IMG/VR virus record: IMGVR_UViG_3300033571_014378
Location: 1-38,715 of that record
Length of the DNA stretch: 38,715 bases
Direction: 5' to 3' (one strand)
Origin: a virus
Part shown: positions 16,291 to 31,600 of the stretch, piece by piece
Layout of the letters: each line of letters opens with the position of its first letter
How positions within the stretch are numbered: the stretch's first letter is position 1
Notes under the pieces: model-generated
Seen by the model: the letters and a program-made list of their open reading frames with translations, nothing else
Told to the model about the DNA's origin: nothing
Database searches by the model: none
Program-made: the position numbers and the translations under genes

Positions 16291-17406
16291 TTATATTCCG
16301 AACGCCATCGAGAAAGCTAGGATATTTGAATCTACATACGATTTCGTAACAGCGTGAGTGGCTAATGTAGGTGCTGTGGTTATATTTACATTGCTTCCTA
16401 CATAAATTTGACCGCCAATGCCGAGACCTCCAGTAATAACAACTGCTCCTGTGGTTGTAGACGATGATGCTGTTGATGCTGTAAATTTATTTGTTGCTCC
16501 TGCAACGTTTAATTGTCCCTGTATTCCTACTCCTCCGGTTACCTTAACTGCACCGGTAGTTGATGATGTGCTGGCTGTACTGTTGCTAAATGTTGCTATA
16601 CCTGAACCGATTAATGTTGGAACATTTAATGTTGTTGTACCGAGATTGAAGGTAAAATTAGCGTTTCCTCCAAAACTTCCGCTGTCATTATATTGTACTT
16701 GGGTATTAGACCCGCCGGGGGGTGTACTTCCGCCTTCTCCGCCGCCGGCAGCCGTAGCCCAAGATAAAACTCCGGCACCGTTCGTTCTTAAAAATTGTCC
16801 TACATCGCCGTCAGTGTCCGGTAAAGTCCAAATAATATTTGAAGACACATTTGTTGCAGCCTTGAAACCTACATAATTAGTATTATCGGAATCGGAAAAA
16901 CGAAGTTCTCCCCTGGTTCCAATCCTTAAAAATTCATCTTCAATAACAACGTGTCCGCCTATATATAAGTCGTCAGTAATACCTACACCTCCCGTTACTC
17001 GAAGAGCACCGGTACTTGAATTTGAACTGGCAGTTGCGTTTGAAACAAAAATAGGATTTGTTACAGTTCCCCCACTAAATCCACCGAACTGTGTGGGTTC
17101 CCATCGACTATTCGCACTCGACCAATTTAACACATCTCCGTTAGCGGGCGTTCCAGTGACTACATCTCCTAGATCATCTAAATTATGATTAGATATATTG
17201 CTTACTGTTCCGTTAACAGTCCCGTTTATTATTCCAGAAACCGCGAGATTGCCTCCTATCGAAGCATTTCCAGATGTAGATAAACTAGTGAAAGATGGCG
17301 ATGTTATCGGTTGTATTTCCCAAACCGTCCCGGACCAAAACCAGGTGGTTGATCCTTCTGTAAAGGTTTGATTTACTGTTGGGCTGTTAGGAAAATTAAT
17401 CGCCAT
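16291..17406 (-). CDS. Tail fibre protein with triple 'TGAxxVTGGVGI' repeats
   Basis: 371 residues. It opens MAINFPNSPTVNQTFTEGST followed by WFWSGTVWEIQP, the short W-module that starts many phage fibre proteins. Three copies of a beta unit follow: SSTGALRVTGGVGI (about residue 130), STTGAVKVTGGVGI (~290) and STTTGAVVITGGLGI (~325). Between them are LRFSDSDNTNYVGFKA, IIWTLPDTDGDVG and LRTNGAGVLSW, a block shared with the fibre gene at 27373-28266. Such repeats form trimeric beta-rich shafts. It lies 24 nt after the 666-residue fibre gene; a TATAAATG sequence at 17416-17423 might act as a weak late box. No tail-fibre chaperone is fused. Confidence 0.8.
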   Translation of the reverse strand: MAINFPNSPTVNQTFTEGSTTWFWSGTVWEIQPITSPSFTSLSTSGNASIGGNLAVSGIINGTVNGTVSNISNHNLDDLGDVVTGTPANGDVLNWSSANSRWEPTQFGGFSGGTVTNPIFVSNATASSNSSTGALRVTGGVGITDDLYIGGHVVIEDEFLRIGTRGELRFSDSDNTNYVGFKAATNVSSNIIWTLPDTDGDVGQFLRTNGAGVLSWATAAGGGEGGSTPPGGSNTQVQYNDSGSFGGNANFTFNLGTTTLNVPTLIGSGIATFSNSTASTSSTTGAVKVTGGVGIQGQLNVAGATNKFTASTASSSTTTGAVVITGGLGIGGQIYVGSNVNITTAPTLATHAVTKSYVDSNILAFSMAFGI

Positions 17407-17430: not shown

Positions 17431-19431
17431 TTATAATGTTGAGAAGTCTTTGACTACTATGGTACCAACCATTCCTGCGTGAGCTCCACACTGATATCTG
17501 TAATTTCCAGAAATACTACTAGGTATTTTCCAATATAATGTTCCTTGTGTTTGTCCTTGAGCCGACGAACCAGTAGCCACAGTACCATTAGTAGCAACAT
17601 GAACTAAACCAGTATTATAATTAGTGCCGCCGCTATCCTGAATTAAAAAAGGATGTCCGGTGACATTTAGATTAAATGCTATAGTTGTACCATTTATAGC
17701 ATAGATAGTAGGATCATCTGTAGTTCCGTATTGATCAAATCTGTAAGCTACTGCACCGTTATTTGTCACAGTCAACATAGATATCGCTGGTAGATAAATT
17801 TTATCTATAGTCAGCGATGCTGTAGAAACATCAGATAATCCGGTAAAGGCAGTGGCTCCTGCAGATACAGTGTTAGTGATGGTAACAGTGTCTGAAGAAG
17901 AGTCTGTGGTTATAGAAATTCCTGTTCCTGCAACAAGGGTTATCGTGTCGTTAGTAGAATCTGCCACTACGTTGCTCTGTCCTGCAACTGCAACTGTGCC
18001 GAAAGCACTGGCACCACTTGCAGAGTTAGTAATAGTTATTGAATCAGACGAAGCATCTGTAGTTATTGTTATTCCTGTTCCTGCTACTAAAGTCAATGTA
18101 TCGGTGCTGCTATCGGCTACTACATTACTTTGCCCTGCAACCGAGATTGTTTCAAAACTATTACTTGCTGATCCTCCACTGGCAGATGCTGAGATAGTTA
18201 TTGTATTAGCATCGGTTCTAGTAAGGGTGACATTTGATCCAGCTGCTAATTTTACATCGTCGGTGCTTGAATTAGAACCGGTCAATCGTAAATTTACTCC
18301 TCCGGTAGCGGTTTCTGCCGAGATTCCGTAAGTTACAGAAGATATAGTTATAGAATCTGTAGTAGAATTAGTTGTGATACTCACGCCACCGCTACCTGTT
18401 AAGGTTAAGGTATCGTTAGCAGTATCCGCTATCACAGACGATTGTCCAGTAACCGCGATCGTATTAAAAATATTTGGTTTATTACTTAAGTTAGTAAAAT
18501 TTAAGTAATAAGTACTGTCAAGACCGTCTAATGTATCTGCATCAGTGCCGCCACCGCCGCTGGCAACATCAGATGCCGGTACCCAATTTGTACCGTTCCA
18601 CTTCAATACCTGACCAGCAGTAGGGGGTGTTGTTGATGTATCTACATCAGTTAATGAATTTATTCCGCCAATAACAGGAACATCGCTGGCATTCGCAAGT
18701 GCTACCCATTCTCCGGCATGAGCAAAATACATTTTACCATCAGCATGACTATGTGCGATTGCTCCGTGATAAGTAGAAGCGTTAGGAAATCCGCCCTGGT
18801 TAGCATAATAAAATGGTATCACACTACCAGCTGCCGGGGCTGTAATTGCTCCATCGTCTCCTATTGTAACAGGACTAGTTTGAATTAATTTGCCTGTTGC
18901 TAGATTAAATCTTGCAATTGCATTATCTGTAGAACTTGCTGGTCCCGATACGTCTCCGCCACCTCCGCCGGCCGAAGAATTGTCTGTTCCGTTGACCCAA
19001 ATACTACCATTATATTTTAAAACTTGTCCTGTAGTTGGTGAAGTAATGGAAACGTTAGTAAGATCGTTTAATGATGTGGCGCCGCCACCTCCGCCACCTC
19101 CGCCACCGCCGTATACTAAAGAGGTAGGCTGCACCCATTGACTGCTATTTCCATCGTTATAATATATGAATATCTTGCCTGTAGCAGTATTAAACCAGAT
19201 GGTTCCGGGATCAACACCTTCCGGAGGAGTATCTCCCAATGCTGCTCCGATTACTCCCTCAATATTTTCTAAATCGGCACGTAATAACGAAATACCGCCG
19301 GTACTAATTCCGTCATACAGGCGTAAACTGTTGCTGTCTTCGTCAAAAAATACTTCTCCTCGAGATCCTGTTTTTCTATCTAAGAAATCGGCATCTCTAG
19401 GAATAATTCTAAAGTAGTTGAATGCTTGCAT
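17431..19431 (-). CDS. Tail fibre protein ending in a cupredoxin-like domain
   Basis: 666 residues. The N-terminus MQAFNYFRIIPRDADFLD and GEVFFDEDSNSLRLYDG is a known fibre start motif. Next come a W-module (DPGTIWFNTATG, SSQWVQPT), a run of ten glycines (about residue 110), two copies of 'GQVLKxNGxxWV', and then alternating repeats of the type GQSNVVADSSTDTLTLVAG and GITITTDASSDSITI that probably form a beta shaft. The last ~90 residues differ: GHPF (His593), then YRYQCGAHAGMVGTIVV with Cys648, His651 and Met654, the His-Cys-x2-His-x2-Met set of type 1 copper proteins of amicyanin type. A late box stands 5 nt before the ATG. Whether copper is bound is unknown. Confidence 0.8.
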   Translation of the reverse strand: MQAFNYFRIIPRDADFLDRKTGSRGEVFFDEDSNSLRLYDGISTGGISLLRADLENIEGVIGAALGDTPPEGVDPGTIWFNTATGKIFIYYNDGNSSQWVQPTSLVYGGGGGGGGGGATSLNDLTNVSITSPTTGQVLKYNGSIWVNGTDNSSAGGGGGDVSGPASSTDNAIARFNLATGKLIQTSPVTIGDDGAITAPAAGSVIPFYYANQGGFPNASTYHGAIAHSHADGKMYFAHAGEWVALANASDVPVIGGINSLTDVDTSTTPPTAGQVLKWNGTNWVPASDVASGGGGTDADTLDGLDSTYYLNFTNLSNKPNIFNTIAVTGQSSVIADTANDTLTLTGSGGVSITTNSTTDSITISSVTYGISAETATGGVNLRLTGSNSSTDDVKLAAGSNVTLTRTDANTITISASASGGSASNSFETISVAGQSNVVADSSTDTLTLVAGTGITITTDASSDSITITNSASGASAFGTVAVAGQSNVVADSTNDTITLVAGTGISITTDSSSDTVTITNTVSAGATAFTGLSDVSTASLTIDKIYLPAISMLTVTNNGAVAYRFDQYGTTDDPTIYAINGTTIAFNLNVTGHPFLIQDSGGTNYNTGLVHVATNGTVATGSSAQGQTQGTLYWKIPSSISGNYRYQCGAHAGMVGTIVVKDFSTL

Positions 19432-19484: not shown

Positions 19485-19730
19485 ATGATGACAGATTTAC
19501 CCGTATTTGACAAGGACTCTACAGTTTTTCCTTATTTCCTGAAGGGCCTCAAAACACTGCTGGAAAAATACTCTACTGAAATAGCCAACGCTGACGATAA
19601 ATGGGCTAGAGTAAAAGAACTTTGGTTGAGAGAATACGATTCTCAATTAATCGACGAACAAGGTTATTTTTCAAATATACGATTTATCAATCCCGTCGAT
19701 TGTATGAAATTTAGTCTTACTTTTTATTAG
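19485..19730 (+). CDS. Small acidic protein, function unknown
   Basis: 81 residues from the first of two adjacent ATGs; an upstream in-frame ATG at 19422 is rejected because the consensus late promoter box lies downstream of it. The protein is acidic and helical (FLKGLKTLLEKYSTEIANAD, then WARVKELWLREYDSQLIDE) with a short strand-like C-terminus. I recall similar short proteins in marine myoviruses, without a known role. It is a single plus-strand gene inside a fibre region transcribed the other way, and its TAG stop overlaps the stop of the convergent gene at 19727. Confidence 0.7.
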   Translation: MMTDLPVFDKDSTVFPYFLKGLKTLLEKYSTEIANADDKWARVKELWLREYDSQLIDEQGYFSNIRFINPVDCMKFSLTFY

Positions 19731-20077
19731 TTGATTTTTATAGTAGACAACGGAATTTCTATGTTGTATTTTTTGAGTATTTCTTGAATTTTATCTGACG
19801 ATTCGAAACCATAAAATTTTAAAAACCTTTTATCTGTATCTCTTATAAAGGGATAATCGATAATATAAAATTCACAGTAAGGATCCCAAGCTGCATATAC
19901 TCCGATAATTCCAGGATCATAATAGATTTCTTCCCAGACACGTATGTCTTCTATATCAGGGTTACTATTTGAATTCCAAGGATCACTTGGCGGAGTTTTT
20001 AAGAAATTTTTATCATAATTTCTCTGAGACCAGCTATTATTCTCGATATCAAAATTTGAAATAAACTTAGCTACCAT
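19727..20077 (-). CDS. Adhesin-companion small protein, third diverged copy
   Basis: 116 residues. The core DIEDIRVWEEIYYDPGIIGVYAAWDPYCEFYII matches the IEDV-IWE-xY...GIG-YA-Y-P-AEFYM core of the proteins at 20067-20477 and 25972-26394 (split here only to describe it: IEDIRVWEEIYY, then IGVYAAWDPYCEFYII). It lacks the N-terminal FKTT-NIL and the C-terminal W-xDDxMWLY of the other two. It overlaps the preceding copy by 11 nt, so it was probably formed by local duplication and is co-translated. Related proteins are found beside tail fibre genes in marine myoviruses. A fibre-assembly or tip-binding role is inferred from position only. Confidence 0.7.
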   Translation of the reverse strand: MVAKFISNFDIENNSWSQRNYDKNFLKTPPSDPWNSNSNPDIEDIRVWEEIYYDPGIIGVYAAWDPYCEFYIIDYPFIRDTDKRFLKFYGFESSDKIQEILKKYNIEIPLSTIKIN

Positions 20078-20477
20078 TATAAAGCCACATTTCGTCGTCT
20101 GCTACCCAAGTTTTGTAAAGACAAAGATCTATTCCTAACTCTTTAGATCGTTTATAGACCTTTTGCTGTGCGCCGGGACCGTAATAGGTTTCTATGATCT
20201 TATCGTTATATCTCTGTCCTTGCTGTAGAGGAAGCCAGCCTGTTGTCACCATATAAAATTCTGCAAATGGTGAATAAGATGCGTAGACGCCTATCCCGTG
20301 ACCAGCTTCGTATAATATTTCCCAGATATCAACATCTTCTATCTGCATTTCTCTAGAATAATCCCATTCTTTCGAAGCTGGTAGCCAAGGGGTATTTCTA
20401 TCTAGATGGTTTCTATCAAATAGTTCATCTTGATCTCTTGGACCAAGTATATTATGTGTGGTTTTAAAAAGAGGCAT
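20067..20477 (-). CDS. Adhesin-companion small protein, copy A
   Basis: 136 residues, starting MPLFKTTHNILGPRDQDELF. The central part WDYSREMQIEDVDIWEILYE, followed by GIGVYASYSPFAEFYMVT, then YYGPGAQQKVYKRSKELGI and the ending WVADDEMWLYNGS, align throughout with the protein at 25972-26394. It is soluble, acidic and aromatic-rich. Its start overlaps the stop of the glycine-rich gene (TAATG), so the two are translationally coupled, exactly as in the second copy of the unit. Tail fibre genes are often followed by a chaperone or attachment gene. This protein is a candidate for such a role but shows no similarity I can see to known chaperones (T4 gp38, Tfa, gp57A). Confidence 0.75.
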   Translation of the reverse strand: MPLFKTTHNILGPRDQDELFDRNHLDRNTPWLPASKEWDYSREMQIEDVDIWEILYEAGHGIGVYASYSPFAEFYMVTTGWLPLQQGQRYNDKIIETYYGPGAQQKVYKRSKELGIDLCLYKTWVADDEMWLYNGS

Positions 20478-21424
20478 TATGGAAACGGATAACGAACTAT
20501 TACTATCCCAGGAGCGCCGAAGCCGCCAGGACCTGGTCCCGAATTGCCCGATCCTGATACTCCTCCACCGCCACTACCGAAGTTATTTCCGTAATAAGGA
20601 GCCGGAGTTCCTTGTCTAGGGTAAATGATTCCCCATCCTCCCGGCCCGCCATTGCCAGGGCCACCAGCACCGCCGGGTCCAATTCTCGGACCGGCGCCAC
20701 CACCGCCTCCGCCAGCATATGTAGTTGCATTTCCTGGCCAGGTTGTGCCAGGGCCGCCTGTCCCACCAGAACTAGGACCTGGTTGCCCGGCCCCACCGGA
20801 GCCACCACCGCCTCCTCCTCTTCCGGATGAGCTGCTGCTCTGTCCGTGTCCGCCCGGATTTCCTTGTCCTGGAGTTCCGCTAGTAGGAGAACTAGTATTT
20901 ACTCCGACGCCGCCAGCAGATCCGCCCGGATTTCCGTTAGTAGTATAAAACCCACCACCTCCACCGCCGGTGGAAGAAATCGGTCCAACAGATGATCCGC
21001 CGCCGTCTCCGCCCGGGCCGCCCGGTCCGCCGTAGCTGCTGGGTTCGAACCCGGTGCCACCGCCGCCAACGGTAACAGGAGTGGTTCCAGTGGTTAGAGT
21101 GAATGTTCCTGACCTATAGCCGCCTGCTCCGCCCCCGCCGCCCGAGCCGCCATCGTTTCTTTCGGCGCCGCCTGCTCCGCCGCCTGCGACACAAAGATAT
21201 TCAACCATCATTCCGCCGCCCGCGCCTCCCTGAAGATTTAGAATATTTGGACTAGATAGGTTCCTTAAAAAGAGATTGGCTTCTCCTACAGATGTAAACA
21301 TATGTATTTTATAGCCCCCTGCAGTATAAACTTTATCTCCTCCAGTTAATTCCCAGCGAGGTTTTTCAATTTTTAGCTGTTGTTCTTTGGCGTGATTTCT
21401 TCGAATAGTAGTTACAAATGGCAT
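20477..21424 (-). CDS. Glycine-rich adhesin-like tail fibre protein, copy A
   Basis: 315 residues. An N-terminal ~70 residues (MPFVTTIRRNHAKEQQLKIE, then GGDKVYTAGGYKIHMFTSVGE) contains the 'GGY-IH-FTS-G' motif that precedes glycine-rich fibre tips. From MMVEYLCVAGGGAGGAE on, the protein is dominated by Gly with Pro and Ser (GGGGAGGYRSGT, GGPGGPGGDGGG, GGAGQPGPSSGG), ending GAPGIVIVRYPFP. Such glycine runs can pack as polyglycine-II helices, as in the S16-type gp38 receptor-binding tip. Short Pro-Gly steps also make it a possible hydroxylation target. It is paralogous to the protein at 26396-27361. An AGGAAAG site precedes the ATG, and two late boxes lie upstream. Confidence 0.8.
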   Translation of the reverse strand: MPFVTTIRRNHAKEQQLKIEKPRWELTGGDKVYTAGGYKIHMFTSVGEANLFLRNLSSPNILNLQGGAGGGMMVEYLCVAGGGAGGAERNDGGSGGGGGAGGYRSGTFTLTTGTTPVTVGGGGTGFEPSSYGGPGGPGGDGGGSSVGPISSTGGGGGGFYTTNGNPGGSAGGVGVNTSSPTSGTPGQGNPGGHGQSSSSSGRGGGGGGSGGAGQPGPSSGGTGGPGTTWPGNATTYAGGGGGGAGPRIGPGGAGGPGNGGPGGWGIIYPRQGTPAPYYGNNFGSGGGGVSGSGNSGPGPGGFGAPGIVIVRYPFP

Positions 21425-21450
21425 TTTTCTTTCCTAAAGGAGTGATATAA

Positions 21451-21481
21451 TATTTAGTATTTTTTTATTTCAATATTTAGT
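21451..21481 (-). promoter_or_regulatory. Two tandem late boxes before glycine-rich gene A
   Basis: Minus-strand ACTAAATA occurs twice, at 21481-21474 and 21458-21451, 23 bp apart. The nearer one is 26 nt before the ATG and leaves room for the AGGAAAG ribosome site. The second copy may be a duplicated or reserve start. Confidence 0.5.
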
Positions 21482-21487
21482 AAAAAC

Positions 21488-21522
21488 TTGTTTTTGACAA
21501 TTAAATAGCTATTATTAAAGGA
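21488..21522 (+). promoter_or_regulatory. Probable host-type promoter and ribosome site of the oxygenase operon
   Basis: TTGTTT (21488-21493), a 16-nt spacer and TATTAT (21510-21515) form a plausible sigma70-type promoter. AAAGGA (21517-21522) lies 6 nt before the ATG at 21529, so the leader would be very short. A TTGACA at 21494-21499 is better as a -35 but has no -10 at the right distance. No late box precedes the operon. Confidence 0.4.
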
Positions 21523-21528
21523 CTTAAG

Positions 21529-22158
21529 ATGACCCTTCAAGTAAACGGATTTTTTCCTGGAGAAATCGAACCTCACACTATTGTAGGTGGTTGTATAGCT
21601 ATTTACGAAAATGTGTGGCCAAACCCAGACGAAGCTATAAAATTAATGGAAAGAGAAGTATCTAATCCTAATTCTGGAACATATTGGCAGCAGGCAGAAA
21701 CTATAGACAGCGGAGCTTATCAGAACTACAGAACTAATAAGTTAATGCCTGTTACTCACCTTGCCTATATATCTAATAATCCTGCATTACAAAATATACA
21801 TAATCAATTCTATATGCTTTTATTGGCTGCTTCAAATCCTTATGCAAAAAGATTTAGAATTAAAGAGCAGCTTTTTCACGAGCATTATCATATGTTAAAA
21901 TATTCAGAGGGAGAAGAGTACAAACCTCATTACGACGGCGGAACGGTCATGGGAAGATCGATATCTGCTATCTGCTATCTCAATAATGATTATGAGGGCG
22001 GAGAATTAGAGTTCCCAAATTTTAATTTTAAGATCAAGCCAGAGCCCGGAATGTTGGTTTTATTTCCGTCTAATTATGCTTACGAACATATCGCGCATCC
22101 TGTAAAATCGGGAACAAAATATGCGTTAGTAACATGGATCAAGGATAGAGACATATAA
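21529..22158 (+). CDS. 2OG-Fe(II) oxygenase, prolyl-4-hydroxylase-like
   Basis: 209 residues, first gene of the seven-gene operon. The double-stranded beta-helix signature is clear: His134 and Asp136 in YKPHYDGG bind iron, LNNDYEGGELEFP is the usual strand pair after it, and the second half YEHIAHPVKSGTKYALVTW supplies the third iron ligand His187 and the 2-oxoglutarate-binding Lys197. The H-x4-PV-x2-G-[KR]-Y pattern with Lys is the prolyl-4-hydroxylase / PKHD type. These enzymes use O2 and 2-oxoglutarate to hydroxylate a substrate, releasing succinate and CO2. All catalytic residues are present, so activity is likely. The substrate is unknown; proline in fibre proteins is one option. Confidence 0.9.
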   Translation: MTLQVNGFFPGEIEPHTIVGGCIAIYENVWPNPDEAIKLMEREVSNPNSGTYWQQAETIDSGAYQNYRTNKLMPVTHLAYISNNPALQNIHNQFYMLLLAASNPYAKRFRIKEQLFHEHYHMLKYSEGEEYKPHYDGGTVMGRSISAICYLNNDYEGGELEFPNFNFKIKPEPGMLVLFPSNYAYEHIAHPVKSGTKYALVTWIKDRDI

Positions 22159-22159
22159 T

Positions 22160-22828
22160 ATGTATTTTCCCACATTATGTGTAGATAACTTTTACACTTA
22201 TCCTGACAAAATTAGAGAATTTGCGCTATCATTAAAATTTGAAGAAACGACCCAGATACCCTGGCCAGGCAAAAGATCAAGATCTCTCGATTCTATTGAC
22301 AGCGCATTCTTTAAAAATTTTTGCGATAAACTTTTTTCTTTAAATTTTGATCTAAAAAAAACAAGCAGTTTAAAATATTCTGTAGAAACTTATTTTCAAA
22401 TAATGGAACCAGGTCAGTATGATGACATCAATCAAGGATGGGTACATTCTGATTATCGAACTTACGCCGGTGTAATTTATCTAACGCCGGATATCGATCT
22501 AAATTGTGGAACATCGATATTTAGATCTAAAAATTATTTCAATAGTCCGATAAATTTAGAAGAAAAACAGGATATGTACCTAAACTATCAATCCTCAAAA
22601 TCCAATTATTATAAACAAAAGATACAAGAAAATAATGAACTTTTTGAGGAAACTATTAATTTTAAAAACATTTTCAATCGACTTATTGCCTATGACGGGT
22701 TCCAGTATCACGGGGTTAATAAATTTACAGGAAATGATAATCAACCAAGATTAACCCAGGTATTTTTTATACACGAAATAAGCTCAGATTATTTTCCTGT
22801 TCCTGCATCGAGACAGATACTATTATGA
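22160..22828 (+). CDS. 2OG-Fe(II) oxygenase-like protein, second in operon
   Basis: 222 residues. The pattern GWVHSDYRTYAGVIYLTP gives His96 and Asp98, CGTSIFRSK follows as the next strand, and LIAYDGFQYHGVNKF gives His184, with Arg197 in QPRLTQVFF as likely 2-oxoglutarate ligand. The spacing between the two halves is longer than in the first gene because of a charged helical insertion (about residues 130-170). The sequence is unlike the prolyl hydroxylase before it, so this is not a recent duplication. It starts 2 nt after the preceding stop. Proteins of this shape occur in marine phages and bacteria; no substrate is known to me. Confidence 0.75.
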   Translation: MYFPTLCVDNFYTYPDKIREFALSLKFEETTQIPWPGKRSRSLDSIDSAFFKNFCDKLFSLNFDLKKTSSLKYSVETYFQIMEPGQYDDINQGWVHSDYRTYAGVIYLTPDIDLNCGTSIFRSKNYFNSPINLEEKQDMYLNYQSSKSNYYKQKIQENNELFEETINFKNIFNRLIAYDGFQYHGVNKFTGNDNQPRLTQVFFIHEISSDYFPVPASRQILL

Positions 22829-23613
22829 ATTTTAAAAATTTTTTTATTAAAGAAAAAGAAATAATTTTAGAATGTTTTACTCATTTAAATCATGCTTACG
22901 ATTATGCTAAAATAGATCAAGCATCTAAGTATGTTCCTGATTGGTGGAAGAAAACTCCTGGTCAACTACCAGAACTAACCAAAGGTGCAACTATAAAACA
23001 TTGCACTGGATTTATCGATTATTACAAAAAAGGAATAGTGATTCCTTCCTGGTTTGAAATGGAGTTAGAAGTTGCTCCGATTGGAGAATATCCGGAATGG
23101 CAGTGGCGGTCATCAAATTCTGATCTGGATACTAGTCATTCGCACGTTCAAAGACAATTCGAGGGATTTTCGGGTCAACAAGGACACAATATAAAAATTG
23201 TATCTCCTTGGGCTCTAAGATCAAATGAAGAAATTTATTTCACCTGGACTGAACCGTTATGGAATATGGTTGATTATCAAGACACGATTTCTATTTTACC
23301 TGCAGTTGTGAATTACAAATATAATCACGCCACTGAAATCAATCTTTTTGTGAAACAAAAGAAATATCATCAAAAATGTACTATTCCAGCACTAAATCCG
23401 TTAGTAATGATGCATCCGTTATCCGAGAGACCGGTAAAACTAATACATCATTTAGTATCTAAAGAAGAATATTCTAGATTGTTTGGAATTGACAAGATGA
23501 TTATGAGAGATACCAGCCATGATTCTTCTCAGATCTATAATCGAAAGAAAAAATTACATCAAAAAATAGAAGAAAGAGAAAAAGGATGTCCTTTTCACTC
23601 CAGGGGAAAATAA
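22825..23613 (+). CDS. Conserved operon protein of unknown function
   Basis: 262 residues, and the only gene of the operon in which I cannot see an oxygenase core. Features are ECFTHLNHAYDYAKIDQASK with PDWWKKTPGQLPEL near the N-terminus, KHCTGFIDYYKKGIVIPSWF, a His-rich SHSHVQRQFEG (about residue 105), ALNPLVMMHPLSERPVKLIHHL and a charged, basic C-terminus ending GCPFHSRGK. Alternating strands suggest a beta-sandwich or cupin-like fold. It overlaps the upstream gene by ATGA and ends directly before the next ATG, so it is part of the same unit. It may be a divergent oxygenase, a substrate adaptor or a separate enzyme. Confidence 0.8.
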   Translation: MNFKNFFIKEKEIILECFTHLNHAYDYAKIDQASKYVPDWWKKTPGQLPELTKGATIKHCTGFIDYYKKGIVIPSWFEMELEVAPIGEYPEWQWRSSNSDLDTSHSHVQRQFEGFSGQQGHNIKIVSPWALRSNEEIYFTWTEPLWNMVDYQDTISILPAVVNYKYNHATEINLFVKQKKYHQKCTIPALNPLVMMHPLSERPVKLIHHLVSKEEYSRLFGIDKMIMRDTSHDSSQIYNRKKKLHQKIEEREKGCPFHSRGK

Positions 23614-24264
23614 ATGAATAATGATTTTTTTATCAAAAACGGTTATGTAGTCGTGAAATCTGCTTTATCTCAGGAACTGAGAGATTTTATAACCCAATAT
23701 GCGTTATTCGATGAAATGCAGGATTTCACACCCGAAAAAAAGTTAAGAGGAAAAGAATATGCTCAGGTGGCCGAGGCACATTCTAAATATGGTGATCCTG
23801 CAATGGAATCTCTGTTGTTGCATATGCACCCGGTGATGGAGAGAAGCACTGGACTGAGATTATATCCCACATATTCGTATTACAGAGTTTATAGAGATAG
23901 AGACGATCTACAGCCGCACGTAGACAGACCGAGTTGCGAAATTTCAGCTACCGTATGTTTAAATTACAATTATGATGATAAAGATTGTTGGCCGATTTAT
24001 ATGAATGGATCTGAAGTAAAATTGTATCCTGGAGATATGGTTATTTACAGAGGCTGCGACTTAGAGCACTGGAGGAATGCATTTGAAGTAGACCAAGATG
24101 CTTGGCAAGTACAGGCATTTTTACACTATGTAAATGCAGATGGTCCTTATTCAGAATTTAAATTTGATCGAAGAGAATCTATAGGAACACTCGATAAACC
24201 CGATGTCCAGATAGAACAAGATCAAGCGAGTCATCAAAAAAATTATATTATATTTACAAAATGA
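23614..24264 (+). CDS. 2OG-Fe(II) oxygenase, phytanoyl-like variant
   Basis: 216 residues. LQPHVDRPSCEISATVCLNY contains the iron-binding His102 and Asp104, YPGDMVIYRGCDLEHWRNAF supplies His152, and WQVQAFLHYV follows as the last strand. The Arg that usually binds 2-oxoglutarate about ten residues after the last His is not obvious; Arg154 or a Gln in the final strand may do this job. The N-terminus FFIKNGYVVVKSALSQEL is typical of small hydroxylases ('F-x2-NGYVVV'). It starts immediately after the previous stop codon and overlaps the next gene by ATGA. Confidence 0.8.
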   Translation: MNNDFFIKNGYVVVKSALSQELRDFITQYALFDEMQDFTPEKKLRGKEYAQVAEAHSKYGDPAMESLLLHMHPVMERSTGLRLYPTYSYYRVYRDRDDLQPHVDRPSCEISATVCLNYNYDDKDCWPIYMNGSEVKLYPGDMVIYRGCDLEHWRNAFEVDQDAWQVQAFLHYVNADGPYSEFKFDRRESIGTLDKPDVQIEQDQASHQKNYIIFTK

Positions 24265-24860
24265 TAGAATCTTGGTTTCCAACATTAATTTATAACCATT
24301 TGATAGAGTTTGAGCATAATCAGTATCTCAAAAAAATCGCTTTAGATATCTATGAAAAATCTAATAAAAATGTCACGACTAAATGGGCCTGTGATACTTT
24401 TAATACTATAGGGCATTATGATTACAGAGATGCCAATGATCCGATAGTAAATGATCTTGTGGAGATATTTAGACTTAAGGTCTACGAATTCAGCAAAGTC
24501 TACGGAATTACTTTACCTATGATTCATCTTCATTGTAAAGATCTTTGGTTTAATGTTGCCGAACCCGGAGCATATCAGGAATATCATCAACACACAAGAT
24601 CTCATTTTAGCTTAACTTATTATGTTGATGTTCCTACAGATTGCGGTAAAATAAGATTTCGAAGTTTTGAAGCTCTTACCGATATGTATACTTTGCCTAT
24701 TGAATCCCATAATGAAAATTTAACCAGTTGGAAAACCTGTGCATATGAACCTGCAGAAAATTTACTTTTGATTTTCAGATCAAATTTGCCTCATATGGTT
24801 GAAAAAAATCTTAGCAACAAGCGGAGAATTAGTATAAGTGCTAATTTTGAATTTGCATGA
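24261..24860 (+). CDS. Putative 2OG-Fe(II) oxygenase of the 2OG-FeII_Oxy_5 type
   Basis: 199 residues. WFPTLIYNHLI at the start and WFNVAEPGAYQEYHQHTRSH followed by FSLTYYVDVP match the family now grouped as PF13759. The first half of the metal site is His109-x-His111 rather than His-x-Asp. LLLIFRSNLPHMVEKN gives His178, and RRISISANF gives Arg188/189. The family is widespread in marine phages, and enzyme activity has been proposed mainly from the fold. It overlaps its neighbours on both sides by ATGA. Confidence 0.8.
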   Translation: MIESWFPTLIYNHLIEFEHNQYLKKIALDIYEKSNKNVTTKWACDTFNTIGHYDYRDANDPIVNDLVEIFRLKVYEFSKVYGITLPMIHLHCKDLWFNVAEPGAYQEYHQHTRSHFSLTYYVDVPTDCGKIRFRSFEALTDMYTLPIESHNENLTSWKTCAYEPAENLLLIFRSNLPHMVEKNLSNKRRISISANFEFA

Positions 24861-25465
24861 TAGAATTACTGCATTTTGAAAATTTTGGAATATTAAAATG
24901 CCAAATACCTCAATCATTATTGGGCAAGCTACAACAAGAAGCATCATCGGACAACAATACTGCGCATCCTACAGCTATCGACGGTAACGGAATTCCTAAA
25001 ACTATTAAACTAGAAAAGAATTTAGATGAATTTAAAATGTTTGTAAAGGGTATAAGTAAAGAATTTATCAGTTCATTTCCTAGATATTTTAATAGTTTCG
25101 ATCATTGTACTCATAATATGCCCTTGTATTTTAATCAACCTTGGTTTAATCTACAAAAAAAATATGAATTCGTACCGAATCATTTCCATGAGGGCTGCAT
25201 AAGTTATGCTTCCTGGATTCAAGTTCCGTTTGAAATCAAAGACGAGCACACCAAGGGAAAAAACAATTACAGCGGATGTTTTGAATTTTCCTATATTTCA
25301 ATGTTAGGTAACATCATGCTTGAGAGATTGTATATTGACAAATCTTGGGAAGGCACGTTAATCATGTTTCCTAGCAAATTAGTTCATTGTGTATATCCGT
25401 TCTACTCCAGCGACGAAGTAAGGATTTCGTTGTCTGGAAACATATTATTTGATACGTCCAAATGA
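24857..25465 (+). CDS. 2OG-Fe(II) oxygenase-like protein, sixth in operon
   Basis: 202 residues. PNHFHEGCISYASWIQVPFE holds the first metal-site pair (His109 and/or His111 in H-x-H, as in the preceding protein), SGCFEFSYISMLG is the following strand, and GTLIMFPSKLVHCVYPFYSS with EVRISLSGNI gives His177 and Arg189. The order and spacing are those of a double-stranded beta-helix oxygenase. It resembles the preceding protein at the motif level only, so the two are at most old relatives. Overlaps of 4 nt (ATGA) at both ends. Confidence 0.75.
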   Translation: MIELLHFENFGILKCQIPQSLLGKLQQEASSDNNTAHPTAIDGNGIPKTIKLEKNLDEFKMFVKGISKEFISSFPRYFNSFDHCTHNMPLYFNQPWFNLQKKYEFVPNHFHEGCISYASWIQVPFEIKDEHTKGKNNYSGCFEFSYISMLGNIMLERLYIDKSWEGTLIMFPSKLVHCVYPFYSSDEVRISLSGNILFDTSK

Positions 25466-25980
25466 AATATCAAATCACAGATAATTTTGTAAACTATCAG
25501 GAATTTAAAAAAATTCAGGAAATATTGTTGACAGCAAATTTTCCGTGGTATTTAAATTCTAATAAAGTTCAAAAAAATTCGGTGGTTTCTGACTTACATA
25601 ATTTTCAATTCACGCACACATTTTTTGACGAATATAAAATCCAAAGTAATTTTCTATATCTGTTAGAACCTTTATTAATAAAAATAAATCCTTCAGCTAT
25701 CGTTCGAATAAAAGCTAACTTGCAAACAGTTACAGATAAGGTTATTGTTTACGATATGCACAACGATGTTAATGATTTTGATGGAGAAACTGCAATATTT
25801 TACATCAATACTAACAATGGATATACTCTATTAAAAGACGATAATGTCAGAGTAGATTCGGTAGAAAATCGATTGTTGACATTTCCTGCAGAAACAATGC
25901 ACACAGGAACCAGCTGCACTGACCAGCGTGTGCGCTGTGTTATAAACTTAAATTACTACAAATGGAAAAGTTTAAAGTAA
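25462..25980 (+). CDS. 2OG-Fe(II) oxygenase, last gene of operon
   Basis: 172 residues, short for the family but with a complete core. YDMHNDVNDFDGETAIFYIN gives His100 and Asp102 (H-x-D), NGYTLLKDDN the middle strand, and LLTFPAETMHTGTSCTDQRVR gives His147 and Arg156/158 for 2-oxoglutarate (motif shown in shortened form: FPAETMHTG and QRVRCVINLNY). The N-terminal part is a small helical and strand region. It starts with an ATGA overlap and ends 9 nt inside the convergent companion gene at 25972. There is no terminator between them, so transcripts from the two strands probably collide or overlap here. Confidence 0.85.
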   Translation: MKYQITDNFVNYQEFKKIQEILLTANFPWYLNSNKVQKNSVVSDLHNFQFTHTFFDEYKIQSNFLYLLEPLLIKINPSAIVRIKANLQTVTDKVIVYDMHNDVNDFDGETAIFYINTNNGYTLLKDDNVRVDSVENRLLTFPAETMHTGTSCTDQRVRCVINLNYYKWKSLK

Positions 25981-26394
25981 GATAATTTTGCCGGGCTCTG
26001 GTGGGGGTTCTTTATATAACCACATATCGTGATCATCTACCCATTGTTTTTGTACGGTAATAGGCATTCCTAACTCCCTTGCTCTTTTATAAGCTGCTTC
26101 CATAGAGCCTGGTCCATAAAAACATTCTATGTTGCTAGGTCTTTCTACTATCCATTCACCGGTTATCATGTAAAATTCAGCATAGGGAAGATATGCTGCA
26201 TATAATCCGATACCGCCTGTGGCGTAATAAATCTGTTCCCAAATTTCTACATCTTCGATTTTCATCTCCCTACTGTAGTCCCAGTCTACAGTAGGTGGTG
26301 CATAAGGAGAATCGGTGTCCATCCAATTTTCATTGAACAGTTCTTCTTCCCAGGGAGTTTTTAAGATGTTGTAAGTGGTTTTAAAAGTTGCCAT
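25972..26394 (-). CDS. Adhesin-companion small protein, copy B
   Basis: 140 residues, paralogue of the protein at 20067-20477: MATFKTTYNILKTPWEEELF, WDYSREMKIEDVEIWEQIYY, GIGLYAAYLPYAEFYMITGE, FYGPGSMEAAYKRARELGM and WVDDHDMWLYKEPPPEPGK. The last ten residues (proline-rich, then KIILL) are not in copy A. It begins one base after the glycine-rich gene's stop, with no separate ribosome site, so translation is coupled. Same order and orientation as in copy A: glycine-rich protein first, companion second. Function unknown; a role in folding, capping or attaching the adhesin is inferred from this fixed pairing. Confidence 0.75.
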   Translation of the reverse strand: MATFKTTYNILKTPWEEELFNENWMDTDSPYAPPTVDWDYSREMKIEDVEIWEQIYYATGGIGLYAAYLPYAEFYMITGEWIVERPSNIECFYGPGSMEAAYKRARELGMPITVQKQWVDDHDMWLYKEPPPEPGKIILL

Positions 26395-26395
26395 A

Positions 26396-27361
26396 TCAAG
26401 TGAATGGATATCTAACTACTACTAGACCGTTTGAACCATAACCCGATCCGTTCCAACCAATGTTAGGAGACCAATAACTTCCAGCACCGCCACCTGATCC
26501 AAAATTTGATGAATATGCGTGTGTGACACCCCAACCTCCTCTAGGATCTTGGCTGTAAGAATAATAACTATAACCCCAGTTTGGAGTTGATCCGTGGCCT
26601 CGGCCACCGCCATGCGCACCGTCACCTCCGGTTTCTGAAGAATTTCCTCCACCGCCTCCACCGCCAGCTCTAGTAACTGCTGATCCTGTGATAGAGCTCG
26701 ATGTGCCAAATCCTCCCTGATGGATCGGGCCTGGGCTGCCGCCGGCAGTTGATGATCCGCCACCGCCACAACCTGACCAATAAAAGGCTCCGGGTGAGCC
26801 TGGAGTTCCTTGTCCTGGAGTTCCGTTTCCTGCTGGATACCCGGCTCCCGAGCCACCGCCTGAGCCACCCGGTTGACCGGGAATACCGCTGGTATAACTT
26901 GAGCCACCACCACCACCGGTGGATGTAATAGATCCCATAGTAGAAGGACCACCAGTATTAGTGCCGCTGCTGTAGGATCCGACAGGAGGACCTCCGGCTC
27001 CTACGTTTGTAGGTGTGGTTCCAGTGGTTAATGTTACTGTTCCTGATCTATATCCGCCAGCACCACCGCCACCGTTACCGTTGGTCGAGTTGCTATTACC
27101 GCCCGAGCCTCCTCCAGCGATAACCAAATATTCAACCATCATTCCGCTAGCAGCAGTCTGTAAAGCTAGAGCATTATCTTTATACTGATCTTTTAATTTT
27201 ACATTTAGTCCGGATTCTCCCACGGATGTAAACACGTGGATTTTATATCCTCCAGCAGTGTATACTAGATCTCCACCGGTAACCTCGAAAATATCTTGTT
27301 TTCGAATTTCTACTGGCTGTTCTCTATTTACTTTGTTTCTTATTGAGCTTATGAATGGCAT
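26396..27361 (-). CDS. Glycine-rich adhesin-like tail fibre protein, copy B
   Basis: 321 residues, paralogue of the protein at 20477-21424. Shared N-terminal motifs are MPF-[ST]-[ST]-IR, VTGGDLVYTAGGYKIHVFTS and MMVEYLVIAGGGSGG, then GGGGAGGYRSGTVTLTTGTT. The glycine-rich body (STGGGGGSSYTSGIPGQPGG, GTPGQGTPGSPG) differs in detail and has more Ser/Thr/Asn/Tyr. The C-terminus GSNGLVVVRYPFT matches copy A (GIVIVRYPFP). Conserved ends with a variable glycine-rich middle are what is expected of receptor-binding tips under selection. It follows the 297-residue fibre gene by 11 nt with only a weak AGAGAG site. Confidence 0.8.
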   Translation of the reverse strand: MPFISSIRNKVNREQPVEIRKQDIFEVTGGDLVYTAGGYKIHVFTSVGESGLNVKLKDQYKDNALALQTAASGMMVEYLVIAGGGSGGNSNSTNGNGGGGAGGYRSGTVTLTTGTTPTNVGAGGPPVGSYSSGTNTGGPSTMGSITSTGGGGGSSYTSGIPGQPGGSGGGSGAGYPAGNGTPGQGTPGSPGAFYWSGCGGGGSSTAGGSPGPIHQGGFGTSSSITGSAVTRAGGGGGGGNSSETGGDGAHGGGRGHGSTPNWGYSYYSYSQDPRGGWGVTHAYSSNFGSGGGAGSYWSPNIGWNGSGYGSNGLVVVRYPFT

Positions 27362-27372
27362 TTTTTCTCTCT

Positions 27373-28266
27373 TTACGATGCTACTAGGGACGAACCGCCT
27401 GTGCTGGTAAATTCGTGACGTCTAAATCCACCCGCTGTAGTCACTGAACCTCCAGTCACTGTTAAGGTTCCGGCCGTAGCTATATGAAATACGACCCAAG
27501 AATTCGTATCTCTTTTTCTTATATATAGTTCTTCATTTTGGGCCATGGTTCCTGTAGCTGTTAGGGTAACACCCGCAGCACCTTGAAGTGTTACGTTAGC
27601 AGATCCTAATCTATAACACCAAATAACTGTGCCCGTAGGAAATGCGACCGTTGAGTTTGTAGGCACGGTTAATGTTGCTGTTGAAGAATTATTCATATTG
27701 ATCACACCGCCGGCATCAGTTAATTGCATAGTATAACTGGCAGTTTGTATATTTTCTGGTCGAAGGCTGTTTGCTTTGCCGTCGACCTGTAATGCACTGA
27801 TCGTTAATAGTCCTGTACTGGGCTGGAAAGTTAATTTTGTGCTAGAAGTTCGTACTGCTGTTAAGTTACCTGTAGTAGCTGTTCCTAAAATTACATAATT
27901 TGTTCCTGAATCGCTGGTATTATCTGTAATGGTTGCTCCGGTAGTCGAGAATGACAAAACTCCCGCACCGTTAGTTACCAATGATTGACCGTTAGACCCG
28001 TCTGTAGCGGGCAAAGTCCATATCAAATTTGCTGCGACTGTTGCTGGAGCTTGAAATCCTACATAATTGCTGTTATCAGAATCACCAAATCTTAGATCTG
28101 ATTGACTAGATAGCTGAGCATCGGCAGAAATAATAAATCTACCGGTTCCTACTGGATCTACAGTGATGTCTAAATTTTCAGCAGTAGAGATCACAGCAGT
28201 AGGCTGTATCTGCAATGCTCCTATGCTTGGTTCTCCTACAGCGCCGGCTGAGAGTTTTCTTGCCAT
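27373..28266 (-). CDS. Tail fibre protein with adhesin-type C-terminal motif
   Basis: 297 residues. MARKLSAGAVGEPSIGALQI opens the protein. LRFGDSDNSNYVGFQAPATV, NLIWTLPATDGSNGQ and LVTNGAGVLSFSTT match the block in the fibre at 16291-17406. The middle (QTASYTMQLTDAGGVINMNN, then a TLTVPTNS strand and LYIRKRDTNSWVVFHI) is a common phage fibre beta domain. The end TTAGGFRRHEFTSTGGSSL repeats the 'GGY-IH-FTS-G' motif that opens both glycine-rich proteins, but here it is the C-terminus and no glycine tip follows. The next gene supplies one, so this may be the shaft to which tip protein B binds, or the two were once one gene. AAGGAG precedes the ATG. Confidence 0.8.
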   Translation of the reverse strand: MARKLSAGAVGEPSIGALQIQPTAVISTAENLDITVDPVGTGRFIISADAQLSSQSDLRFGDSDNSNYVGFQAPATVAANLIWTLPATDGSNGQSLVTNGAGVLSFSTTGATITDNTSDSGTNYVILGTATTGNLTAVRTSSTKLTFQPSTGLLTISALQVDGKANSLRPENIQTASYTMQLTDAGGVINMNNSSTATLTVPTNSTVAFPTGTVIWCYRLGSANVTLQGAAGVTLTATGTMAQNEELYIRKRDTNSWVVFHIATAGTLTVTGGSVTTAGGFRRHEFTSTGGSSLVAS

Positions 28267-28624: not shown

Positions 28625-28632
28625 TATTTAGT
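28625..28632 (-). promoter_or_regulatory. Late promoter box of the 108-residue protein gene
   Basis: Minus-strand ACTAAATA overlaps the TAA stop of the large upstream gene and lies 17 nt before the ATG at 28607. TGGAG lies between box and start. Confidence 0.5.
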
Positions 28633-31600
28633 TTAAAAAGTAATTCCAGGCCATTGGATATCCCGTGACTCCGCCTCTAAATTCAAACACTGCTTTCATT
28701 TTTATACTTGCACCCGTTATGTTTGTAATTTGATTAGAATCTATTTTGATTGATCCTGCTGTAACGCTATTTACGTTCAATGCAGCACCTCCTCCGCCGA
28801 TCTGTGCTGCTATGTAAGCTTTGATAGCACGTTGCGTCGGAACCACAGTATCGGAATCAGCTGTAAAGAACGGATCTGTACTGAATTCAGTAATTGTTGC
28901 TGATCCGCCTCCTAGGGTGACTTCGCCTAGATTAAGTTCTTGCAGTCCGGAAATGTTAAATGCATCTGCATTTAATGTCGCAACACCTGTACTTTGTTCA
29001 ATGCTGAATAAACCTCCTACTCGGAAATTACCGTCTTGATCTGTGCTGGTGTAGAAAACTCTTCCTCCGTCATTTTCAACTGTTTCGTTGGCAGGTATTG
29101 TTATCTGGGTAGCAGTACCTGGATAATTAGTTTCAACAACGTTTCCTGTTCCGATGTCTAAGAAATCATGACCAGTTAAGCGAACCTGACTGTATCTTAT
29201 CCTGGTTGTTACGTCTTCTAAATGTTCAGGTGCTTCACTGATAGTGAACGAGGGACTGACCTGGAAGAAGCAGGTATACGCTCCGTCGTAGCTACCTAAA
29301 AATGTAAACACATTTACTAATTTAAATGTTCTATCCGGTAAGTGATCGAACACCACATTTGATCCAGGTACTGGTTGTTCTGTTAGTCTTCTAACTGCTA
29401 CAAAACTTCCGCTTTGATAGATGTCTGCATATCCGTCGCCAGTATCAATTTCTGCTGATCCAGTTGAAAATCCTGTACCTCTGCTGTTAAAGGTAGGCTG
29501 CGATAATACACCTTTGCCTTTTCTTACTGATGTCGGTGCTTCGTATATATTATTTGGATCTGTTATGGTTAGAGTTGGAGCAGTGTCGTATCCCGAACCC
29601 GGTTCGATCATTCTGATAGAAAATATTTTTTCATCCGCTACATATGCTCTAGCTCTTGCTCTAGCACCACCTCTGACTCTAACCACATGATTACCGCTAT
29701 CTTTCATGATCACGGTCCAATAACCTGTTCTATGAGGACTACCAAAAGCCACAGCTGAATAGCCACTCAGTGCGTTGTTTAGACCGCCGTTGGCTAGTCC
29801 TCTTACAGTCCAAGTTAATCCATTTTCAGAAGTAGCTACATAGCTGTAATCCTGAACGCTAGAGATATAAGCCGTAGCCATGAAAAGACCTTGTCCGTAT
29901 CTTACTTTTTGGTATCCTGCTACTGTAGATCCGTCAGCAGATCCTAAAGTCATTGCTGTCCAAGTAGTACCATTGATACTATATGCGCCCGAATTACTGT
30001 TGGTAGCTACGGCTACAAATATATTATTACCAAAAGTCACAGAATTCCAGGCACTTGAAGCCGGTAAAGTCCTTGATTGCCAAGTCACGCCATCTGGACT
30101 CGACGCTGCTGCTGTGCTTCCTGTTCTTACAGTTACAAACAATCCTTTACCGTAGGTTATTTCTGTAGCCGCTCCTGTGTTTGTGCCTGTGATATCCCAA
30201 GCGATACCGTCTAGAGAAATAGCAACAGAATTATTTGTGCTATTTACTGCAACAAATCTTCCGTTTCCGTAGACCACAGAACACCAAGTTGTGTTAGAAG
30301 GCATACTAGTAGCAGTCCAAGTTATACCATCGTCTGAATATGCCGCTTGATCCGATCCAGATCTAATAGCCACGAATCGAGATTGTTCTAATACACTAGA
30401 ACCGTCATCTATAGATCCGTGTGCTAATGCTACCCAGTTACCCGAAGACGGTAGTGTCATCGCTGTCCAAGTCGATCCGTTATCTGAATAAGCTCCGGCA
30501 GTGACTCCGCCTGTTCTTAATGCTACAAATCTTCCTCCGCAACCATAACCATCTGTATCAAATGCCAAAATCGCACCAGTAGTTGAAACTGCGGTAATAG
30601 TAATTACAAGATCATTAGTGCTTGACAATCCTCCTAAACTAGTTCCGGCGATCGTTATAGTTTCTAAACGTTCGTAACCTGCGCCCGCAGTTTGGATATA
30701 GGTAGTGTATTTCCAACCGTTTCTCACTACTGTAAAATTAGCACCTGCACCGCTTCCTGTATATGTTCCGTACAATGAAGTATAGGATGCTGTAGTTGAT
30801 CCAAAAATTACATCGGACCATGTTCCTGGAGTGCTCATCGTGTTTGATACATCTGTGAAATTAGGAGCTGTAAAAGTCAGAGCTGGTTCGATAATATAAG
30901 TTGTCGATGCATCGGGAGTAGCTATAACTGTTCCCGAAACCATGTGATCCCATCCGCTAGCTCCTGTAGTTTCTTTTACCACTGTGGCAATTTTAGTTCC
31001 GCTATTATACGAACTTATTATTCCATATTGCCCTACTCCTGTTCCGCCAGTTAGATAAATCTTCATCCCTACGTAAGCTGAACTTGTTTCTGAATCAGTA
31101 GCTGCTAGAGTCAGTGACGATGATGTTCCTGTTTGCGCGGTGTTTGAATTTGTAATATATCCAAATCCGCCAAAATTTCCTGAAGCTTCTGGGGCGTTTG
31201 TACTATCATCTACTAGATCTAATAATCGTACTTCAAAAACTCCGTCATCTCTGAATTCGTCTTGTAATACGTTAGCTCCAGCACCTCCACCTGTGATAGT
31301 CCAAGTTGCTTCTGTATAATCTATACCTGCATTATCAAACTCGAATTGATATACGGCTTCGCTGTCTGTGAAAACAGAACCTACTACTGCATCAAATTGG
31401 AATCGATTATCTACTGTTGCAGTATTAGGTGTTTCAGTTATATCGTATCCTTCTGCAACTGCTCCAAAATCTCCGTAGGAACAGTTACCATTAGTTCCTC
31501 TTATTCTTCCGCCGCCTGTAGAAAGATATCCAATATGAGCATAATAGGTAAACACCGAAACTAATTCAGCTCTACCGTTATTAGCTACCCAAGCACCAAT

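Follow-up and report, generated by a model that had tools for sequence, protein, structure and literature searches.

The 38,715-base fragment IMGVR_UViG_3300033571_014378 of IMG/VR, called the window here and numbered throughout from its first position, carries an operon of mostly oxygenase-like genes that is set between two copies of a gene pair, encoding a glycine-rich protein (GLY) and a small companion protein (COMP); both labels are used throughout. Read from its genes, the source of the window is an uncultured T4-like myovirus, and profile searches found tail tubes, a sheath of 1144 amino acids (aa), gp13/gp15-like proteins and several giant fibre proteins. No phage isolate close to the window was found in a DNA-level search, and neither RNA elements nor transfer RNAs were found in it. 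The operon is formed by seven tight open reading frames on the plus strand (21529–25980), whose junctions range from a gap of 1 nucleotide (nt) to an overlap of 4 nt. GLY (315 aa, 20477–21424) and COMP (136 aa, 20067–20477) lie to its left and a second GLY (321 aa, 26396–27361) and COMP (140 aa, 25972–26394) to its right, all on the minus strand, and the right COMP is convergent with the last operon gene and overlaps it by 9 nt. The original prediction for this stretch had described this layout at 20067–27361 and had taken the two flanking pairs as paralogous, and both statements were borne out. The two COMPs are 48.5% identical over 134 aa (E-value 7e-45), and the two GLYs are 54% identical over the N-terminal 82 aa, the remainder being glycine-rich up to the C-terminus. 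A third COMP, which had been overlooked (116 aa, 19727–20077, minus strand), is 25–31% identical to the other two (E-values 1e-11 to 9e-18), and relatives also carry the same family. The 104-nt divergent intergenic stretch at 21425–21528 contains a TATAAT and is, going by its letters, the presumed promoter region of the operon and GLY. The GC content is 33% in the operon, 40% in the window and 47% in the GLY/COMP units, and the AT-rich operon therefore resembles an exchangeable cassette. Since the layout recurs in dozens of contigs, it goes beyond chance.

Both GLY proteins belong to the family Gly_rich_2 (PF21722; E-values 2e-13 on the left and 3e-8 on the right), with scores of 51.3 and 34.5 bits that exceed the curated cut-off of 24.3 bits, and the left one also matches phrog_2295 (E-value 2e-31). 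GLY is probably a tail-fibre tip protein; the label "adhesin" follows from its domain, the neighbouring fibre genes and an analogy with gp38 of T2 and S16. The GLY profile matched no chain of the PDB at an E-value of 1e-3, including the polyglycine II sandwich adhesins, and tblastn over phage isolates returned no record with a GLY, a COMP or a third operon gene of the window type. As for neighbouring structural proteins, the one at 27373–28266 (minus strand) ends in a piece resembling the N-terminal part of GLY (38–54% identity over 26–53 aa) and has a 56-aa segment in common with that at 16291–17406 (minus strand), at 60% identity. Segment shuffling among tail proteins is read from these shared pieces of the two proteins and GLY.

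By sequence comparison, COMP is a new phage-only family. It has no usable match in Pfam, PHROG, NCBIfam or the PDB, and its AlphaFold2 (AF2) model, with a predicted local distance difference test score (pLDDT) of 83, gave no PDB fold match at an E-value of 0.001 and two BFVD matches, both to proteins of uncultured phages. No known tail-fibre chaperone matched it in sequence or fold (Pfam, PHROG, PDB). The family was not found by tblastn in 50,697 phage records, and no isolate carries a match. At least 78 loci of IMG/VR carry it, on contigs of up to 357 kb; GLY directly adjoins it in most of these loci, and COMP is the most constant neighbour there. COMP together with an enzyme cassette was also seen on contigs of widely differing size (L034, L048 and L081, 53–357 kb, including one of 282 kb); as the contigs of 357 and 282 kb are among them, the locus type extends to jumbo-sized phages.

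The first operon gene, ox1 (21529–22158), had been predicted to be of prolyl-4-hydroxylase (P4H) type, and this assignment holds. Its product matches PF13640 (E-value 1e-16), its nearest solved relative is the Bacillus prolyl 4-hydroxylase (PDB 3itq/5hv0, E-value 4e-8), and it has the HxD...H iron ligands of P4H-type enzymes together with the Lys that binds 2-oxoglutarate (2OG), about 10 residues past the distal His. In an alignment of 46 sequences, each of these residues (H134, D136, H187 and K197) is kept by at least 98%. Besides this 2OG/Fe(II) oxygenase, Pfam identifies as oxygenases ox5 (24261–24860; 2OG-FeII_Oxy_5, PF13759, E-value 6e-19; TIGR02466 above cut-off) and ox6 (24857–25465; PF13759, E-value 1e-9), both of which carry HxH...H...R. 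Three more genes are oxygenase-like by motif and neighbourhood. The DUF6445 protein ox2 (22160–22828; PF20043, E-value 1.5e-15) has H96, D98, H184 and R197 across 9 aligned sequences; in ox4 (23614–24264; phrog_2954, E-value 1.5e-45) H102, D104 and H152 are invariant in 36 aligned sequences; and ox7 (25462–25980; phrog_274, E-value 2e-48) has conserved H100, D102, H147 and R158 in its alignment, while its profile matches a protein of phage Sf-CH11 annotated as a P4H-type dioxygenase (E-value 4e-34). The label "minor coat protein" of PHROG 1644 is probably wrong for ox2, given its DUF6445 match and its HxD...H...R motif, and the names "ferrochelatase" and "DNA endonuclease V" attached to ox4 and ox7 clash with their motifs and are probably wrong as well.

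Gene 3 (22825–23613, plus strand) is a distant DUF6065 relative, its family having remote similarity to DUF6065 (5 of 40 members match) and being a frequent cassette partner in relatives. It has neither a 2OG profile match nor the motif, it has no sequence match in the PDB, and its AF2 model (pLDDT 87) resembles the dUTPase fold weakly (best E-value 3.5e-3); gene 3 was on these grounds rejected as an oxygenase. The earlier term "oxygenase operon" thus fits six of the seven genes. In a search of defence profiles, ox1 was strongly matched by a generic "2OG" profile only, labelled CRISPR-associated, and an anti-phage defence reading was rejected, as no defence-specific profile matched. Relatives of ox1 also stand in an unrelated neighbourhood, with neither COMP nor GLY, on separate large viral contigs (L043–L046, up to 169 kb), so that ox1-like enzymes are not restricted to this type of locus.

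The order GLY-COMP-enzymes-COMP, with the enzymes on the opposite strand, recurs in the uncultured relatives, and the enzyme content varies. The oxygenases recur in these cassettes as predicted; a scope of oxygenases alone was too narrow, as flavin-dependent halogenases are added to them and in some cases a carbamoyltransferase. At least one of PF13640, PF13759 and PF04820 was found within 8 kb of COMP in 42 of 50 whole COMP contigs. Against an expectation that spreads genes evenly over each contig, the genes within 5 kb of COMP numbered 25 of 27 for halogenases (9.6 expected), 47 of 77 for PF13640 (22.8 expected) and 48 of 80 for PF13759 (24.2 expected), counts that overstate the independent cases because some contigs are near-duplicates.

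Cultured phages carry a related arrangement. In the cyanophages Sf-CH11, S-RIM44, Syn10, S-WAM1, S-CREM1 and P-RSM6, glycine-rich genes lie close to a halogenase gene and among 2OG genes; the enzymes and GLY are present and COMP is not detectable. Gly_rich_2 genes also adjoin oxygenases or a carbamoyltransferase in Pelagibacter phage HTVC008M and in S-CAM8. In the 15 isolate genomes that contain a Gly_rich_2 gene, rotation predicts 1.15 halogenase genes at a distance of up to 4 kb from it, and 13 of 22 are seen there (p=5e-4); for PF13759 and a distance of up to 6 kb, the observed count is 20 of 92 and the expected one 6.8 (p=5e-4). The check that had been proposed, whether oxygenase and glycine-rich genes occur together in different phages, was accordingly positive for the COMP contigs and for the halogenase and PF13759 genes of isolates. 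The flavin-dependent halogenase VirX1 of Syn10 provides a further connection, as it differs only in the first residue from a Syn10 protein encoded in the glycine-rich locus. The order there is two genes, CPUG_00134 and CPUG_00135, for glycine-rich and histidine-rich (4%) proteins, a small gene, VirX1 and then many 2OG genes. VirX1 is listed with no pathway assigned to it; in vitro it takes a wide range of small aromatics as substrates, heteroaromatics such as 6-azaindole among them, and its active site is large and open (PMC8407142). This breadth of heteroaromatic substrates and the open site make a protein side chain plausible as a target of a VirX1-type enzyme. For S-CREM1, a virion study detected 14 proteins (PMC9964418).

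The composition of GLY was compared with the enzymes nearby in 85 GLY proteins, with enzymes counted within 8 kb (an arbitrary rule; 5 and 10 kb agree). Proline makes up 5.87% of GLY where ox1 is present and 3.06% where it is absent (p=4e-9); for histidine the share is 2.12% beside a halogenase and 0.90% elsewhere (p=2e-6). A cause in GC content was not supported for either shift, and Trp and Tyr were rejected as halogenase targets, neither being enriched in GLY beside halogenases. COMP and the giant fibre family at the same loci show no shift of proline or histidine with the enzymes; the heterogeneous fibre family fib17 does shift with them, in the opposite direction for proline. When lineages were collapsed, the proline and histidine tests gave p=0.013 and 0.007 with 23 clusters and 1e-4 and 9e-4 with 37 clusters. 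Phylogenetic regression, on midpoint-rooted trees built from short proteins, linked proline with ox1 and histidine with halogenase both on the COMP tree (56 loci; p=2e-6 and 0.002) and on the tree of the GLY N-terminal domain (7e-6 and 1e-5), and the cross-terms were null on the COMP tree (proline with halogenase, p=0.66; histidine with ox1, p=0.91). When 160 enzyme-residue pairs were scanned unguided, with six settings and Bonferroni correction, ox1-Pro and ox4-Pro passed in all six, ox5-Trp in five and halogenase-His in a single one (the Gly region at 5 kb), with ox5-Phe, ox1-Met and ox4-Glu among the few others that passed in some settings. The ox5-Trp link was rejected as not robust because its strength on the COMP tree (p=2e-6) is lost on the GLY-domain tree (p=0.65).

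The original prediction had reasoned from many Pro-Gly and Gly-Pro steps in the glycine-rich proteins and from the collagen-like substrates of P4H enzymes. The left GLY does have many (14 Pro-Gly, 11 Gly-Pro), and the right one fewer (6 and 3). Across the 85 proteins, Pro-Gly is at chance (415 observed, 411 in shuffled sequences) and Gly-Pro below what composition gives (296 vs 417), and no X-Pro-Gly preference was seen, for which reason the collagen-like argument fails; the longest Gly-X-Y run is 6 triplets, and a Pro-Gly or collagen motif was rejected. The core of that prediction, hydroxylation of the adhesin tips by the operon enzymes, lost this basis and gained comparative support from the co-occurrence of the genes and from proline tracking ox1 after phylogenetic correction.

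We propose that the operon is an exchangeable hydroxylation/halogenation cassette whose likeliest substrate would be the neighbouring glycine-rich tail-tip protein GLY, a reading to which we assign a probability of about 0.55. It gains support from the gene content, the active-site motifs, the recurrent co-localisation and the composition of GLY, which tracks the enzymes. From these we infer the tip position of GLY, its modification and the residues concerned, the role of COMP and the benefit to the phage. ox1 and/or ox4 would hydroxylate proline of GLY after translation; for ox1, the tracking of its presence by GLY proline suggests that prolyl residues are the predicted target. In relatives, a VirX1-like flavin-dependent halogenase would act on histidine or on a residue of linked abundance. 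COMP would serve GLY as its own assembly factor or adaptor, helping to fold, present or assemble it. Such modification would diversify the exposed surface of the tip while the glycine scaffold stays unchanged, and the altered tip chemistry would change receptor binding or stability. The more specific version, a modular post-translational system that hydroxylates (Pro) and halogenates (His) the phage's own fibre tips, with enzymes being swapped and the tip co-evolving to supply their targets, is more tentative, and we would put it somewhat below even odds.

Several observations weigh against GLY as the substrate. In isolates, PF13640 genes show no significant proximity to Gly_rich_2 genes (10 of 79 lie within 6 kb, p=0.10), the distance exceeds 4 kb for 9 of 22 halogenase genes, and many 2OG genes of cultured cyanophages are far from any Gly_rich_2 gene, so the superfamily must also serve other functions. 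Eight of the 50 COMP contigs have none of PF13640, PF13759 and PF04820. The histidine shift in isolates has the same direction and is weak (3.0% vs 2.1%, p=0.07), histidine is an unusual target for a halogenase, and no clear sequon surrounds proline or histidine in GLY. Since ox1 and ox4 co-occur, the proline link may belong to either. The composition tests were also devised after the locus had been seen.

Of the two main rival readings, one, itself unlikely, is an auxiliary metabolic cluster that builds or decorates a small molecule, a capsule sugar or another secondary metabolite, the place of its enzymes beside tail genes being incidental. Similar cyanophage clusters with a halogenase, 2OG oxygenases and carbamoyltransferases have been published as a system for secondary metabolites or capsule decoration (PMC7824862), the halogenase has been read as protection against antibiotics (PMC2984593; PMC9964418), and the many small aromatics taken by VirX1 in vitro agree with such a role (PMC8407142). 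However, this explanation predicts neither the tight linkage to glycine-rich tip genes nor the enzyme-matched proline and histidine of GLY, and the window cassette, with its oxygenase-like genes and one DUF6065-like gene, has no scaffold-building enzyme. The other, distinctly unlikely, is that the variable fibre region is simply a hot spot which gathers accessory genes, co-localisation showing where insertions are tolerated and GLY composition following lineage. The AT-rich cassette, its varying content between relatives and the clustering of Synechococcus-enriched cyanophage genes in hot spots (PMC3037559) would fit, but the insertions are nearly always of the same enzyme classes, and the links of particular enzymes to particular residues persist after phylogenetic correction on both trees, with null cross-terms.

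That the enzymes modify another protein, such as COMP, the giant fibre at 28628–36124 or a host receptor, rather than GLY appears improbable. COMP, with its constancy and its richness in Trp and Tyr, and the giant fibre, with six CBM_5_12 repeats, are both conceivable substrates; yet their proline and histidine content is invariant with the enzymes, and isolates combine the enzymes and GLY with no detectable COMP. Cyanophage 2OG genes have also been proposed to serve DNA repair and 2OG/NtcA signalling (PMC3037559; PMC2984593; PMC9146016) and have been read as reprogramming host metabolism (PMC9602691). For the present operon, AlkB-like repair, DNA modification or depletion of 2OG to steer NtcA-dependent host nitrogen signalling is highly improbable, since ox1 resembles P4H enzymes and has a Lys that binds 2OG, no AlkB-family match emerged from the profile searches and Tet_JBP appeared there only at an E-value of 0.06. 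Moreover, the neighbours are tail genes and not repair genes, and the halogenases would be left unexplained.

Cyanophages commonly carry 2OG oxygenases, halogenases and carbamoyltransferases, which have been filed as auxiliary metabolic genes with no known substrate. If GLY is indeed their substrate, a large group of phage genes regarded as "metabolic" would encode enzymes for structural proteins, phages could diversify their attachment proteins by chemical means, VirX1 would gain a virion protein as its natural substrate, and halogenated phage attachment proteins would occur in natural waters. No proposal of a virion protein as a substrate of these enzymes was found in the literature searched, which included few subscription papers and no preprints.

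Other tail proteins of the window, all encoded on the minus strand, have features of their own. The fibre/baseplate-connector protein at 17431–19431 has a cupredoxin-like domain in its C-terminal ~115 aa, with the pattern H...C-x2-H-x2-M (HPFLIQD ... YQCGAHAGMVG) and a weak pseudoazurin/plastocyanin match (E-value about 0.45); it may bind copper, and relatives occur in 238 phage records, all of cyanophages or marine phages. The tail sheath (2380–5814) aligns with phrog_23 from residue 816 on, has a large extra N-terminal part and is related to phrog_10581 (915 positions). The adjacent fibres at 28628–36124 (2498 aa) and 36151–38559 (802 aa) are 40% identical over 798 aa, and in the former the CBM_5_12 repeats stand at the start, with kelch/BNR-like repeats seen by eye further on.

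Modification of virion proteins by the phage's own enzymes is familiar from phage-encoded glycosylation, whereas the chemistry proposed here would be hydroxylation and halogenation rather than glycosyl transfer. Compared with the bacterial prolyl 4-hydroxylases, represented by the Bacillus enzyme, ox1 has the same HxD...H...K site and aligns over the catalytic core, but the alignment covers only the C-terminal ~90 residues, and GLY has no collagen-like Gly-X-Y repeats. Like the gp38 adhesins of the T2/S16 type, which carry receptor-binding loops on a glycine scaffold, the polyglycine II sandwich (PMC12892980), GLY is a small glycine-rich protein encoded beside fibre genes; unlike them, it belongs to PF21722, has a profile that matches nothing in the PDB and is a putative tip protein. 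The cluster of cyanophage S-SSM6a unites the same enzyme classes as the cassettes of the relatives, but the consulted portion of its report describes a metabolite or capsule system and does not mention a link to a glycine-rich tip gene (PMC7824862). The locus of VirX1 differs in that the window cassette has no halogenase and Syn10 no COMP, and VirX1 (PDB 6QGM) is the closest solved relative of the cassette halogenases.

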